From assembly GCF_017873855.1 (NCBI RefSeq), contig NZ_JAGGKR010000001.1:1989529-2053528 (forward strand): a DNA stretch of 64,000 bases, read 5' to 3'. The DNA comes from Methanolinea mesophila (lineage in GTDB: Archaea; Halobacteriota; Methanomicrobia; Methanomicrobiales; Methanospirillaceae). The notes below the pieces were generated by a model that made no database searches, had not been told where the DNA came from, and saw nothing but the letters and a program-made list of their open reading frames with translations. Shown here piece after piece: positions 14,140 through 22,384 of this stretch. Every line of letters begins with the position of its first letter. Position 1 is the stretch's first letter. Made by a program: the position numbers and the translations under genes.

Positions 14140-16974
14140 TCACCGGCCCTGGTACCGGTCGAGATATTCATCCATCAGTTTCTTCCGTTCGGGGTCGATC
14201 CCGTAAAGCCCGCACACCAGAGAATCGATCGCCATCGCCGTATGTCCTATGCGGACCGCAAGCCTTTCTGAGGCGTCCTTATCGGGGCCACGGACCAACA
14301 GGGCGAGGTGGAACATCCGTTCGACAAGCATCCTGATCCGTTCCCAGGTTCGGGATTCTTCCGCCGATGCGGGATCTATCACGTGGACCGGGAATGCCAT
14401 CGCCCGGGAGACTGCAGTACTTCCCGGGCTTCCGGGTGTTTTTTCCTCGCCGAATATCATGTAAAACCTGGCGACGGAGGAGTTGATCACCCCGACGAGA
14501 TAGAGGTCCGGATGGGGTGCATGCAGTATTCCCCCGTCATAGCACATACCCTGGTCGGCGATAGTTGCCATCAGGGAATGAGCCCCTGTGGCGATTACGA
14601 GTTCCCCGTCCTCCTCGTTTTCCCGGCAGGAGTCCGTGGCCGTTTCCAGTCCGGCGGGATGCCCTGACGTGGATGGTACTCTGCAGGATTCGTCCGGGCC
14701 GAGGTATCCGTCGGGGACGAGTCTGACATACGGGATTACCGACGAGCCCCTTGCATACGGCCGGGAGGAATCAGGTCGCCCCCCCCCGGGCGCGGAATGT
14801 GGGACTTCCCGCCTGAACCCCAGAGGGAGTGTCCCCCGGAAGATCTCCCCGAGCAGGTACCGGGAGAGAGGGGTGCCGTGGTTCGCGATATGCGCCCGGA
14901 GTTCGCCTAGTCTCGGGTCTTTGAGACTCCAGCCTCCTTTGCCGGTCGGGGCGGGGATCTCCTCCCGGGGGGTCATCAGAGGCCCGGGAAGCCTTCCCGT
15001 CGATGCATGAATCACCCCGACGGACCCTGCCGGGGGTGCGTTTCTTCCGGTGATGACACAGTACCCCTCGCCCCTGTGGGAAATTGTGCCGTGGCGCTCA
15101 GGTCCGTATTCCAGGACCGTGAGAATCTCTTTCCCGGAGATCATATCCCGGGCATCCCCATCAACGATAGCCGAGAGCCACCTGCCGGGAAATGTTACGG
15201 AATAAATGCCGCCTTCCCGGAGGAATTCAAGAATTCGTTCGAGATAGCAGTCCTCGAGCCCGGCGGCAGGCCGGAAGAATCGGTACTTCCGCGCCAGGTA
15301 ATCCCGGACGGCACGGGGAAGCCGTTCGGGTGGAAAGAGGAACTCCCCCCCGATGCCTTCGAATCCTGCCTCTTCCACCCAGGGGAACCGGGCGGGCCAG
15401 TCGAGAGGAAAGAGCCTCTGCTCCTGCAGGGTGCCTGTTTCCGCACGGAAGAGGTCCGTGAGAATATCGGTACCGATGATTGCGTTCCCCCGTACAAGGG
15501 TGACACCTGGCAGTTCCTCCCCCCTGCGATAAAGGGAGGAGAAATCCGCCTCATCGCCCGTGTCATTCCCTGAACCACCGTAACGCTGGAGGAAAAGCAC
15601 GAATCTCGTGCACTCCAGCATGACAGGGTCGGGGTCCACGCCGTACAGCGTGATAACTGGTCCGGAATCCTGCCGATCGGTCGTATGTTCCGGCATCCCG
15701 CCTCCGTCTCCCCGGAAACAATGGAATATCCCGGAAAGTTCGAGCAGGAACGTCCCGGTCCTGCAGCAGGGATCGAGGACCCTGACCGGGTTCATCCCCT
15801 CATATTCCCGGCACAGCCCCTCCGAAAACAACGCCGCTGCCAGTCCGCTCACCGCCCCCGGGGGATTCGGCGGAATTTGGAGTTCATGGTGCGGCATTTT
15901 CCGCTTTTTCTGGAGCCGGTGCTCCTTTTCATGGAGTACGATGGAAAACACCCGGCTGTACAGCTCCGGGGGAATCGGGGAGAACAGGAGAGAAGGGCCG
16001 GCGAAGTCATGCATACAGAGCCTCCGGAGCCGCTCACCTTCAAGCCCTTCGACGGAAAGAGAGGGAAAGTGTGATCCGGGGCCATTTTCTAAACGTGGCC
16101 GGTTACCCGGTGTCTGCGCCCGTTCCAGGTCCATGTGTTCGAGGATAAGATTACACACGATCTGCATCGCTCTCAAATCCCGTTTCTCGTGGTCAAGGCC
16201 CGGATCGGCGGATCTCAGGATCCGTTCGACCCCCTCTCGCCAGTATTTCACCCGGGAAATCAGTGCGTCCCGAAGGGTGAGTGCAGTTTCATCCGGTTCA
16301 CCGGGAAGGATCCGGTCGTGCCGGGCAACCCTCCACAAAAGAGGGACCGGAGAGATCGAGTGTAAAAAATTCTCTGCACTCTCACCGGGCAGTCCCGGGG
16401 TCCAGGCCGAGATCGTCCTGGATCCCGGGGGTCGTCCCTGAATGACCGCAGAAGTGTCCTGCAGTGCACAGCGTTCCGGAGTGAAGAGGACACAGCACGG
16501 ATGATTTGTGTTCCAGGCCCATTGCAGTATGGTTTCCTTATCCCGGGAATTCTCCCGTTCCCCGGGCCCGGCCGGTGCGAGGACTGCAACGGGTGCCCGC
16601 AGGAATCGCGGGGGGAGCGGGGGGTATGAGACATCCTGTTCCACATAGAAGCATGAAAGTCCGGGATCCGGCAGGAAACACGCGGGAATACGAACGGGTG
16701 ATACCCTGTGCCACCCGAGCGGGGAGAAGAAGCGGAGAAGTATCTGCGGGAGATGGCCGCAATCCCCCGGGGGTCCGGCGAACACATCCCCGAGGCACTC
16801 CGAAAGGTGCAGGAGAGATGATGTCGCGTCAGGCGGACTACGCTTCTCTGAGGCCATGAATGGGAGAATATTGGAGATCACGGGTGATAAGGCTGCCAGT
16901 GGAAGGGATGCCGGCGGTTTAGCAACAGGTAGTTCGGCACGAAGACCGATATTCCGACGGGAGATCATCCTCAC
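14140..16974 (-). CDS. Degenerate Eco57I/PglX-type DNA methylase-like protein
   Basis: A 944-residue protein whose middle follows the Eco57I-type (gamma-class N6-adenine) methylase plan but with decayed motifs. Motif I at residues ~398-410 reads VRVLDPCCRTGTFL (family norm DPACGSGxFL). The acidic motif II is near YGVDPDPVMLECTRFVL, and RGNAIIGTDI matches the family's GNSLIGTD. The catalytic (N/D)PPY motif, expected after the FPWxxExGF stretch, is replaced by IGGEFLFPPER (residues ~541-550). The C-terminal part (EIFRGTLPLGFRRE, PDSSRPYARG) resembles the TaqI-like target-recognition domain. DNA methylation therefore looks unlikely, although DNA binding could remain. No endonuclease, Pgl or BREX gene is adjacent. 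The start is uncertain: GTG 16974, ATG 16968 or ATG 16857. Confidence 0.65.
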   Translation of the reverse strand: MRMISRRNIGLRAELPVAKPPASLPLAALSPVISNILPFMASEKRSPPDATSSLLHLSECLGDVFAGPPGDCGHLPQILLRFFSPLGWHRVSPVRIPACFLPDPGLSCFYVEQDVSYPPLPPRFLRAPVAVLAPAGPGERENSRDKETILQWAWNTNHPCCVLFTPERCALQDTSAVIQGRPPGSRTISAWTPGLPGESAENFLHSISPVPLLWRVARHDRILPGEPDETALTLRDALISRVKYWREGVERILRSADPGLDHEKRDLRAMQIVCNLILEHMDLERAQTPGNRPRLENGPGSHFPSLSVEGLEGERLRRLCMHDFAGPSLLFSPIPPELYSRVFSIVLHEKEHRLQKKRKMPHHELQIPPNPPGAVSGLAAALFSEGLCREYEGMNPVRVLDPCCRTGTFLLELSGIFHCFRGDGGGMPEHTTDRQDSGPVITLYGVDPDPVMLECTRFVLFLQRYGGSGNDTGDEADFSSLYRRGEELPGVTLVRGNAIIGTDILTDLFRAETGTLQEQRLFPLDWPARFPWVEEAGFEGIGGEFLFPPERLPRAVRDYLARKYRFFRPAAGLEDCYLERILEFLREGGIYSVTFPGRWLSAIVDGDARDMISGKEILTVLEYGPERHGTISHRGEGYCVITGRNAPPAGSVGVIHASTGRLPGPLMTPREEIPAPTGKGGWSLKDPRLGELRAHIANHGTPLSRYLLGEIFRGTLPLGFRREVPHSAPGGGRPDSSRPYARGSSVIPYVRLVPDGYLGPDESCRVPSTSGHPAGLETATDSCRENEEDGELVIATGAHSLMATIADQGMCYDGGILHAPHPDLYLVGVINSSVARFYMIFGEEKTPGSPGSTAVSRAMAFPVHVIDPASAEESRTWERIRMLVERMFHLALLVRGPDKDASERLAVRIGHTAMAIDSLVCGLYGIDPERKKLMDEYLDRYQGR

Positions 16975-17075: not shown

Positions 17076-17753
17076 ATGCGGCCCCATGTATGGGTGAATG
17101 TTGCCATGAGCGCCGACGGGAAGCTCTCCACCCGGGAACGGCGCCAGGTGAAGATTTCGGGAAAAGAGGACTTTTCGAGGGTGGACCGGCTGAAGTCGGA
17201 GAGCGACGCCATAATGGTGGGCATTGGCACGGTCCTCGCCGATGACCCCTCCCTTACCGTCAAGTCTCCCACGCTCAGGGAGATGAGGACGAAGCGGGGG
17301 GTGGAGGAGAACCCCGTGCGGGTCGTGGTGGACAGTACGCTCCGCTGCCCGGCCGATGCATCGGTCCTTCACAAGGGGGGAGGGAGAAGGGTCATCGCCT
17401 GCACCAATCGTGCAGACCCGGAAAAGGTGACGCTCCTCGGTGAGTACGCGACGGTCATCCGGGCGGGAGGGGATCGTGTCGACCTGAAGGTGCTCCTCTC
17501 CAGCCTGTACGACATGGGGATCCGCAGGCTGATGGTCGAGGGAGGGGGGACCCTGATCTGGGCCCTTTTCGAGGCGGACCTGGTGGACGAACTGACCTGT
17601 TTCGTAGGGAATATTATCATCGGCGGGGCGAGCGCGCCCACCCTGGCGGACGGAACCGGGTTCACACGGGAAGACGCATTTATACGCCTTGACCTTGAAT
17701 CTGCCGTGCGGATCGAGGAAGGAGTCCTGCTCACCTGGAGGGTCAGAAGATAG
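17076..17753 (+). CDS. arfC: 2,5-diamino-6-(ribosylamino)-4(3H)-pyrimidinone 5'-phosphate reductase
   Basis: This 225-residue protein has the RibD C-terminal/DHFR-like fold. Family landmarks are NVAMSADGKLSTRERRQVKISG at the N-terminus, DRLKSESDAIMVGIGTVLADDPSLTV, and the nucleotide-binding VEGGGTLIWAL. It reduces the ribosylamino-pyrimidine to the ribitylamino form in riboflavin and F420 precursor synthesis, using NADPH. Archaea have the reductase separate from the deaminase, as here. The start is a well-placed ATG, divergent from the degenerate methylase gene. The next gene follows 36 bases downstream and may be co-transcribed, though it has no obvious link. Confidence 0.93.
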   Translation: MRPHVWVNVAMSADGKLSTRERRQVKISGKEDFSRVDRLKSESDAIMVGIGTVLADDPSLTVKSPTLREMRTKRGVEENPVRVVVDSTLRCPADASVLHKGGGRRVIACTNRADPEKVTLLGEYATVIRAGGDRVDLKVLLSSLYDMGIRRLMVEGGGTLIWALFEADLVDELTCFVGNIIIGGASAPTLADGTGFTREDAFIRLDLESAVRIEEGVLLTWRVRR

Positions 17754-17789: not shown

Positions 17790-19010
17790 GTGGTTCTCGG
17801 GCTGGTATTTCTTCTCATCGCGATCAGGCAGGTGGGAAGATACCGGTTCAGGATATGGCAGATCATGCTCTTCGGGGCAGTGATAGTCCTGATCACAGGA
17901 CAGATCAGTCCGGTCGAAGCGCTCGCTTCCATCAACCCGGAAGTTATGATCTTCCTGTTCGGGATGTTCGTAGTGGGCGGGGCGCTTGTTGAGAGCGGAT
18001 CTCTCTCCGCCATCGCCTATAGTATTTTCAGGCACGCCCGCACGGGAAACCAGCTGATCCTGTTTATCCTGTTCGGGCTTGGCTTTTTCTCTGCGGTGCT
18101 GATGAACGACACGATCGCCGTCATCGGGACCCCCCTGGTCCTCGCCCTTGCCGGGACGTTCGGGGTCTCCCCGAAGGGGACACTCCTCGCACTCTGCACC
18201 GCAATTACCATTGGCAGCATACCGAGCCCCATTGGGAACCCGCAGAATGTCCTGGTGGCGAGTTATGCGGGATTTGCCAATCCCTTCGTAACGTTCGCGG
18301 TATATCTCGCCATTCCCACCCTTATCAGCCTGGTTATCGCCTACCTTCTCCTGGGCCGCCTGTACCGGTTCTCATCCCCGGAGGAACAGGTGCAGATTTC
18401 GATCCCCGAAATAATAGACCCGGCTCTTGCCCGGCTGGCAAAGATCTCGCTGCTTCTTGTCTTCGGCCTGTCAGGAATGAATATACTGGCAGGATTCGGG
18501 ATATTTCCGTTTACATTCCCCCTCTCGCTCATCGCGGTCGTTGCGGCCCTCCCCGTCCTCCTGGGATCAGGGAAACGGTTCAGGATCCTCGCTTCGATAG
18601 ACTGGGGCACCCTCGTCTTTTTTGTGTCGATGTTTATCCTCATGGAGAGTGTGTACCTGTCGGGTATCATCCAGCAGTTCCTCACTTCGGGGACAATTAC
18701 CGGGATACCCGCAATATTCTGTTCGAGCGTCCTGGTGAGCCAGCTGGTCTCGAATGTTCCCTTCGTGGCGCTCTTCTACCCCCTCATCGCCGGGGCAGGA
18801 CTTCCCACCGCCCAGATCCTTGCGCTCGCAGCGGGGAGCACCCTCGCAGGGACCCTCACGATCCTCGGGGCGGCGAGCAACGTGATTGTGATCCAGAGCG
18901 CCGAACGTCATGGGATAGAACTTTCATTCTGGGAATTCCTGCGGCTGGGAATCCCCCTCACTGCCCTTTCCGGGGTGGTATACGTGATCTTCCTCCTGCT
19001 CTTCTCATGA
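17790..19010 (+). CDS. SLC13/ArsB-like anion permease
   Basis: The roughly 406-residue integral membrane protein has about ten helices of the ion-transporter superfamily. Conserved family stretches are NPEVMIFLFGMFVVGGALVESG in the first half, LMNDTIAVIGTPLVLALA, and SIPSPIGNPQNVLVAS, which corresponds to the (S/T)NxxT/ GNPQN re-entrant loop. The second half repeats the arrangement (VSNVPFVALFYPLI, ILGAASNVIVIQSAE). Substrates of the family include dicarboxylates, sulfate, arsenite and protons/sodium; none can be assigned. The only conventional start is GTG 17790, but it lies 25 bases from a GGAG site; an ATT at 17769 is better placed. Confidence 0.85.
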   Translation: MVLGLVFLLIAIRQVGRYRFRIWQIMLFGAVIVLITGQISPVEALASINPEVMIFLFGMFVVGGALVESGSLSAIAYSIFRHARTGNQLILFILFGLGFFSAVLMNDTIAVIGTPLVLALAGTFGVSPKGTLLALCTAITIGSIPSPIGNPQNVLVASYAGFANPFVTFAVYLAIPTLISLVIAYLLLGRLYRFSSPEEQVQISIPEIIDPALARLAKISLLLVFGLSGMNILAGFGIFPFTFPLSLIAVVAALPVLLGSGKRFRILASIDWGTLVFFVSMFILMESVYLSGIIQQFLTSGTITGIPAIFCSSVLVSQLVSNVPFVALFYPLIAGAGLPTAQILALAAGSTLAGTLTILGAASNVIVIQSAERHGIELSFWEFLRLGIPLTALSGVVYVIFLLLFS

Positions 19011-19954: not shown

Positions 19955-22384
19955 ATGGCGGAGGAAAAAAAGAAGGTCGATCTCAAGATTTCGGGAATGC
20001 ACTGCGCGACATGTGCCATCACCGTTGAAAAAGCGGTGAAAGGGCTCGAAGAAGGTACGGATGCGAGTGTCAACTTCGGGACCGATACCGCCAGCGTGAC
20101 CTTCGATCCCGGCAAAGTCACTCTTTCGCAGATCGAGGATGCGGTCCGTGAATCGGGGTACGAAGTGCTCTACGAAGAAGCGACCATAAAGGTGGGCGGA
20201 ATGGTCTGCGCGACCTGCGTCCAGACCATCGAAGAGGCCCTCCGGGCTCTTCCGGGGGTTATCAGGGCGAACGTGAACCTCTCCACCGAGAAGGCGTATG
20301 TAGCCTACAACTCGTCGCTCACGAGCCTCGAAGATATGAAGGATGCCATAGAGTCGGCAGGATACCAGTACCTCGGGCTCGCTGATCTCCTCACCCAGGA
20401 GGCGGAAGAAAAGGCGAGGGCAAAAGACCTTTCCGGAAAGTTCCGCCGGTTCACGATCGGGTTTGCCGTCAGCATCCCCCTCTTCCTCCTGATGTACGTG
20501 TCCCTCCCCATATCGATGCAGGCTTTGGCCTATGCAGAACTCCTGGTGGCGACGCCGGTCTTCGTCTACGTGGCATCCCCCATATTCCGGGCGGCATGGA
20601 CCGCACTGAAGAACCGGACCCTGAACATGGACGTGATGTACGCGATGGGTACCGGTGTCGCCTACGTGGCGAGCGTGATGGGCACGTTCGGTATCGTGCT
20701 CACCACGGAGTTCATATTTTACGATACGGCGGTCATGCTGGCATCGTTCCTCATGCTGGGGAGATATCTCGAGGCCCGGGCGAAAGGGCGGACCTCTGAG
20801 GCGATTAAAAAGCTCATCGGGTTACGCCCGAAGACTGCAACAGTGATCTCCGACGAGGGAGAGCGGGAAGTTCCGGTCGAGGACGTCCAGGTGGGGGACC
20901 GGATTCTCGTCCACCCGGGAGAGAAGGTGCCGGTGGACGGGGAAGTCATCGCCGGTGAGAGTTATGTCGACGAGTCCATGATAACCGGAGAACCTGTTCC
21001 GGCCGCAAAGAAGAAAGGTTCCAAGGTTGTGGGAGGGACCCTGAACACCAATAGCGTGCTCACGTTCCGGGCCGAAAGGGTGGGAAAGGATACTGTGCTT
21101 GCGCAGATCATCGCCCTCGTCGAGGAGGCGCAGGGTTCACGCCCGCCGGTTCAGCGGATCGCGGACGTCGCGGTGACCTATTTCATCCCCACGGTGCTGA
21201 TAATCGCGGTCGGTGCGTTTCTCATATGGTACTTCGTCGCCGGGCAGACCCTTCTCTTTGCACTCACCGCCCTGATCTCGGTGCTGGTGGTCGCCTGCCC
21301 CTGTGCGCTCGGGCTTGCCACACCGACCGCGGTAACCGTAGGAGTAGGGAGAGGTGCTGAGCTGGGCATACTGGTAAAGAACGGGGAGGCGCTGGAGGTG
21401 GCGGACCGGCTTACCACCGTTCTTTTCGACAAGACCGGGACACTCACCCGGGGAAAACCGGAAATAACCGATATTATCCCGGAAGGGATGGATAAGGGAA
21501 CGCTCCTTGCGCTCGCGGCGAGCGTGGAGAGGAACTCCGGTCACCCCCTGGCGGAGGCGGTCGTACGTGCGGCGAAGGAACAGGGGCTCCCGCTCCATGA
21601 GAGCGTGCGCTTCGACACCCTCGCCGGGCTGGGAGTCAGGGCGGAGGTGCTCGGCGAGGAGGTCCTGATCGGGAACAGGGCACTGCTTGCAGAGAAGGGG
21701 ATACCGCTTCCGGCCGGCACGGATGCGTCGCTCGTGTCGCTCGAGAAAGATGGCAAGACAGGGATTATAATCGCGGTGGCCGGGATGGTCGCGGGAATCA
21801 TCGGGATCTCGGACATCCTTAAAGACCACAGCAGGGAGGCTGTAGACGGGCTCGCGAAGATGAAGATCCGGGTCGCCATGATCACCGGGGACAATGAAAA
21901 GACCGCCTCGGCCATTGCACGCCAGATTGGGATCGACAGGGTGATCGCGCAGGTACTGCCCCAGGACAAGGCGAACGAGGTGAAGCGTCTCCAGCAGAAG
22001 GGAGAGGTGGTGGCGTTCGTGGGCGACGGTATCAATGACGCCCCCGCCCTGGCACAGTCGGACGTAGGCATCGCCATCGGGAGCGGGACGGACGTCGCCA
22101 TAGAGACCGGTGATCTCGTCCTGATCAAGGACGATCCTCTCGATGCGGTGGCGGGGATCCAGCTCTCAAGGAAGGTGATGACAAGGATTAAACAAAATAT
22201 ATTCTGGGCATTCGCCTACAACACCGCCCTGATCCCGGTCGCGGCAGGGGCCCTCTATCCCTTCACCGGGTACACGTTCAAACCGGAGCTCGCCGCACTG
22301 GCGATGGCGATCAGCTCGGTGACAGTGATCTCGCTCTCCCTCCTGCTCAAAAAGTATATACCTCCGGCCAGGAAAGGTAGGTGA
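19955..22384 (+). CDS. copA: Copper-translocating P1B-type ATPase
   Basis: This 809-residue heavy-metal ATPase exports Cu(I). Two N-terminal HMA domains carry GMHCATC and GMVCATC. About eight membrane helices follow, with the transport-site [12 protein letters not shown]. The actuator loop has TGEPVPA, the phosphorylation motif is DKTGTLT, the nucleotide-binding HP is in SGHPLAEA, and the hinge is [14 protein letters not shown]. These mark the Cu+ (P1B-1) class. A YHS mini-protein gene begins 17 bases after its stop and is probably co-transcribed. AT-rich sequence upstream (about 19885-19925) could hold the promoter and a copper-responsive operator. Confidence 0.96.

Follow-up and report, generated by a model that had tools for sequence, protein, structure and literature searches.

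The gene at positions 14140 to 16974 of the analysed stretch of DNA (64,000 nucleotides from Methanolinea mesophila, hereafter the window) belongs to a family of proteins derived from Type IIG restriction enzymes that lacks both catalytic motifs of its ancestors. We favour, with modest confidence, the view that this is a vertically inherited, disarmed Type IIG family of single origin, whose members most likely are sequence-specific DNA-binding proteins, perhaps dependent on AdoMet. At the level of sequence, the data establish the common descent of the family from Type IIG enzymes, the loss of both motifs and the maintenance of the genes; we infer that the family binds DNA in a sequence-specific manner, and this binding may possibly depend on AdoMet.

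The window gene and its product

The minus-strand translation of 14140-16974 is open over 944 codons from a GTG, and the plus-strand translation of the same interval contains many stops. The initial annotation of this DNA had given the 944-codon frame correctly and missed its strand; the Type IIG restriction-methyltransferase ancestor and the loss of the nuclease were likewise absent from it. Translation probably begins with the ATG of codon 40 (16857), which gives a protein of 905 aa, because the third-position GC bias of the later codons (0.65-0.69) is missing from codons 1-39 (0.49). The features of the locus are as follows:

14140-16974, minus strand: open frame encoding the motif-less protein of Type IIG descent, matched by an HMM built from relatives
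16546-16584, minus strand: VLAPAGPGERENS, at the position of the PD-(D/E)xK nuclease motif of intact relatives (FICEAKKP), without ExK
15742-15783, minus strand: motif I (AdoMet loop), RVLDPCCRTGTFLL, with DPCCRTG; R instead of the first glycine of GxG
15616-15648, minus strand: motif II, LYGVDPDPVML
15466-15498, minus strand: motif III, LVRGNAIIGTD (GN..IGTD)
15322-15387, minus strand: motif IV region, FPWVEEAGFEGIGGEFLFPPER; catalytic NPPY absent in alignments with relatives
15196-15258, minus strand: motif V helix, LEDCYLERILEFLREGGIYSV, containing ERI
14140-14502, minus strand: TaqI-like C-terminal part (YLVGVINSSVARFYMIFG ... IDSLVCGLYGIDPERK), common to intact and motif-less relatives
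17076-17753, plus strand: RibD-type reductase, divergent neighbour
17790-19010: transporter, neighbour
19955-22384: CopA-type ATPase, neighbour

The protein has an Eco57I/CamA-type adenine methyltransferase fold and a TaqI-like C-terminus. Among proteins of solved structure, CamA, an adenine methyltransferase, is the closest in sequence (E 0.004), the PADLOC mad2 profile matches weakly (E 2.8e-5), and the Pfam Eco57I profile (PF07669) scores 12.9 bits (E 0.12; curated cut-off 25.3), a cut-off that is exceeded by the relatives L148, L037, L031 and L050. Two structure models both match CamA, M.BseCI, PglX, M.TaqI and BpuSI, with poor global superposition (TM 0.2-0.5), and the model of the window protein is weak (mean pLDDT 64, residues 1-193 below 50). 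The sequence landmarks first described are present, and the Eco57I-class ancestry proposed from them is supported.

The initial annotation had also placed the loss of motif IV within 15325-15783, and correctly so: GFEGIGGEFLFP aligns exactly where intact relatives have GFDAVIGNPPY, and the window protein reads GGEFLFPPER at motif IV. No [ND]PP[YFW] at a shifted position was found in a search throughout the protein, where the other xPPx words (SPPD 46, NPPG 370, APPA 646) all lie away from motif IV.

Loss of both active centres in a family of Methanoregula and allies

Of 61 genomes searched for relatives, 29 gave matches. A profile made from 15 of these relatives had hits in 83 of 108 genomes from the archaeal family concerned (Methanoregula and allies). 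We classified 76 full-length proteins: an intact [ND]PP[YFW] is present in 26 and missing from the other 50. One of the latter, L040, was set apart, leaving a motif-less family of 49 proteins, the window protein included, with frames of about 700-1080 codons. They come from 49 different genomes in 12 genera, one motif-less copy per genome, and those family matches that bear names are Methanoregula or Methanoregulaceae; two partial motif-less relatives (G053 and G058) occur in one other family. As to fixation of the altered motif across the Methanomicrobiales, which the initial annotation had raised, the loss is fixed in one clade, almost all of it from one family, and the replacements differ by genus. 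It is not order-wide: NPPY or NPPW is present in all 22 relatives that we read from the order's other families, and most of these also have the nuclease motif.

L040 (7887-11132, one draft genome) is an intact-type enzyme with its nuclease motif kept and NQPY in place of NPPY. This is one codon away from NPPY and may reflect a sequencing error or a recent mutation; such an enzyme, if real, would cut without protecting.

None of the 49 motif-less proteins has [ND]PP[YFW]; at the position of NPPY, tyrosine is never found and asparagine in 14 of 49. The replacements follow genus or sub-clade (GAPPPY, NPPEG, NLPDG, SFPAH, GFFNVS, GEFLFPPE), and GAPPPYRPF is nearly invariant in one sub-clade, Methanoregula group 1. 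The YTP of motif X, already seen as altered in the window protein, is gone from the motif-less proteins. A sequencing or frame error as the cause of the motif IV loss was rejected, as 49 proteins agree, and their sharing of the loss as one clade puts it beyond chance.

The intact relatives are Type IIG fusions, in which an N-terminal HSDR_N-type nuclease (IDYSFR...FICEAKKP) is followed by the methyltransferase and a TaqI_C-type recognition domain, and 24 of the 26 have the D..ExK nuclease residues. Among the motif-less proteins outside L040 no recognisable ExK was found at the nuclease position: the window protein lacks it at the place aligned with the N-terminal PD-(D/E)xK nuclease, and the Methanoregula motif-less proteins lack the entire nuclease domain. 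The loss of both activities in the family is well supported, and the motif-less proteins would be expected neither to methylate nor to cut.

The residues of the AdoMet site are retained in 41-48 of the 49 proteins: both the D and the last G of motif I in 48, the acidic D of motif II in 48, and the G and N of motif III in 48 and 41, respectively. The motif V glutamate (ERI) is invariant (49/49). The GxG of motif I and the acidic motif II are present in most relatives; in the window protein, R replaces the first G, so that AdoMet binding by this protein is doubtful. Its CCRTG, noticed from the outset as an altered motif I, is indeed unusual even within the family, where 42 of 49 proteins keep the glycine.

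A single origin within the Type IIG enzymes

A tree was computed without the motif IV columns and rooted on outside enzymes. It places all 48 motif-less rows in a single clade (SH-aLRT 99) that lies inside the intact Type IIG enzymes and is adjoined (98) by the intact L041, L045, L142 and L143, plus L040. These supports come from a quick search, and long branches, the window's among them, make the exact placement unsure; fast-evolving sequences can be pulled together on trees. The deep order was not resolved in an earlier tree made without outside rows. Several independent losses as the main story were rejected, since the outside-rooted tree needs one, plus that of L040.

The four adjoining intact enzymes, each from a different genome, lie in the slot of most Methanoregula motif-less genes, with deoxyhypusine-synthase/PyrF-like genes on one side and TiaS-like/thermosome genes on the other. 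In G018 and G083, which carry an intact enzyme in this slot, no motif-less copy was found among the profile matches. The slot of the window (RibD, transporter, CopA) is common to L031, L032 and L034 (genera g8 and g11), which group with the window protein on the tree (94), and a third slot is common to the genomes of g7 and g13, the latter presumably Methanospirillum.

Several other genes were observed around these loci. A conserved protein of about 150 aa (F2, 27 genes in the cluster) is encoded convergently beside the slot gene in L142, L143, L047, L131 and other Methanoregula-type loci; it has no Pfam match and accompanies intact and motif-less genes alike. An AbrB-like and PIN-domain-like pair (F13/F11), perhaps a toxin-antitoxin pair, occurs close to the slot gene or downstream of it in some ten genomes (L036, L095, L099, L136, L137). 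Type IIG-family C-terminal fragments of about 70-150 aa are repeated near intact genes (L125:2128-5825, L118:9300-10530, L119:1322-1765) and look like spare recognition-domain cassettes for specificity switching. The window's own chromosome carries, at about 286 kb (G000:C1; L126:6163-7281), what is left of a Type IIG enzyme of the intact type: 373 aa that keep DPACGSG, with the frame lost before motif IV.

The slot neighbours are housekeeping genes that differ from slot to slot, and a search of the neighbourhoods found no partner gene common to all slots. This speaks against the motif-less proteins being non-catalytic partners that recognise the target on behalf of an active methyltransferase, or another enzyme, whose gene lies elsewhere, a reading that we consider unlikely. 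It has a precedent in METTL14 of the eukaryotic RNA methylation complex, a non-catalytic methyltransferase relative with a degenerate motif IV (EPPL replaces DPPW) that serves complex integrity and substrate binding (PMC5023411). It would also agree with the conserved recognition domain of the motif-less proteins and with the several orphan methyltransferases found to be universal in the group by a survey of archaeal restriction, which names the persistent methyltransferases of this archaeal group, the motif-less family not being among them (PMC10609329). METTL14, however, belongs to an unrelated RNA system, has a known active partner and was found to bind no AdoMet, none being seen in its site, whereas the motif-less family conserves its AdoMet-site residues.

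Constraint and rate of evolution

Over 13 pairs of motif-less genes dN/dS is 0.20-0.57, with bootstrap upper limits of at most 0.78, versus 0.13-0.32 for four pairs of the intact group, and a pseudogene was rejected on these values. In the methyltransferase core the values are 0.18-0.53 for motif-less and 0.08-0.15 for intact pairs; constraint on the recognition region is similar in both, and that on the core is weaker in the motif-less proteins. The initial claim that selection keeps the gene thus holds for the family, through the dN/dS of relatives, while the argument drawn from the open frame itself is weak in GC-rich DNA; the window gene has no relative close enough for dN/dS.

Restriction enzymes changing specificity are expected to diverge fastest in the recognition region, and the intact enzymes do so. 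At a core identity of 0.50-0.72, the ratio of recognition to core identity is 0.87-0.91 in motif-less groups, partly raised because the core itself is less constrained, versus 0.56 in intact enzymes; the motif-less proteins therefore give no sign of specificity swapping.

The weaker constraint, the fast divergence, the stops within the matched stretch in some frames (G107, G092) and the true relic of intact type elsewhere in the window's genome would all fit Type IIG relics slowly on their way out, with frameshifts yet to come. We nevertheless find such decay quite improbable: a single old loss has left 49 full-length frames in 12 genera, no pair has a dN/dS as high as 1, and at about 50-60% identity the replacement motif APPPY itself hardly varies.

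The window protein is 25% identical to L031, in the same slot, where neighbour genes reach 54-74%. Fast evolution at a fixed place could point to a decoy, an option already raised in the initial annotation, that would serve defence by sequestering viral anti-restriction proteins or by vying with invading restriction enzymes for their sites. So could the fold kinship with PglX, for which structures in complex with the viral mimic Ocr have been solved; since no defence genes adjoin the family gene and no viral partner is known, we give this little credence. That the remodelled motif IV methylates another substrate (another base, RNA or protein) seems very improbable: the kept AdoMet residues and motif V glutamate and the near invariance of GAPPPYRPF in Methanoregula group 1 would allow it, but motif IV chemistry that varies by sub-clade is a poor fit to one catalytic solution, and the YTP of motif X is lost.

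A disarmed restriction enzyme as a putative DNA-binding protein

We return to sequence-specific DNA binding as the leading explanation, in line with the non-methylating, DNA-binding role guessed at first. As the sequences show, a resident Type IIG enzyme in a common ancestor of Methanoregula, Methanospirillum and allies lost its nuclease and its adenine-methylation centre, a joint loss that would avoid self-cutting. Still present are a helical connector, a methyltransferase fold in which most AdoMet-binding positions persist, and the domains for target recognition and at the C-terminus, all under purifying selection, as seen in relatives. The protein would most likely act by occupying a fixed DNA sequence, perhaps on condition that AdoMet or S-adenosylhomocysteine is bound to it, in gene regulation, nucleoid organisation or site masking. 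The fast evolution between the window protein and L031 counts against a regulator, as it need not be seen in a strict one. Overall, the data suggest that an old defence enzyme was turned into a DNA binder that leaves DNA unchanged.

The family resembles Type IIG enzymes (PADLOC PDLC03604; BpuSI, Eco57I and MmeI type) in its domain order, with a connector followed by the gamma-class methyltransferase core, the recognition domain and the C-terminus, and an intact sister gene in the Methanoregula slot matches this profile with E 3e-210. It differs in lacking the nuclease D..ExK and NPPY, and in its single copy per genome, vertical inheritance and unswapped recognition region. Both models have their best fold matches in CamA, M.BseCI and M.TaqI, orphan or Type II adenine methyltransferases that are active and retain NPPY. 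PglX/BrxX of BREX, with a fold match and a weak profile match, also keeps the catalytic motif; identity with BREX PglX was rejected, as the window gene is surrounded by housekeeping genes and transporters and no BREX genes.

Pseudoenzymes are a known kind of protein. Restriction enzymes are as a rule acquired, switched and lost again; in this family both activities were lost at a single point of the tree, and the descendants were kept in single copy across a dozen genera. Our literature search found no description of a motif-less Type IIG family, and a lineage-wide, doubly disarmed one of single origin is, as far as our searches show, undescribed. Annotation of these proteins as Eco57I-type or Type IIG methyltransferases would lead one to expect methylation that ought to be absent. 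How the enzyme became a non-enzyme is directly testable, as the intact ancestor type survives in some relatives, in the slot of most Methanoregula descendants. We suggest only tentatively that a domesticated Type IIG enzyme, deprived of both centres, serves an entire archaeal lineage as a core AdoMet-sensing, sequence-specific DNA-binding protein; if true, such a binder would link methyl-group supply to chromosome regulation.
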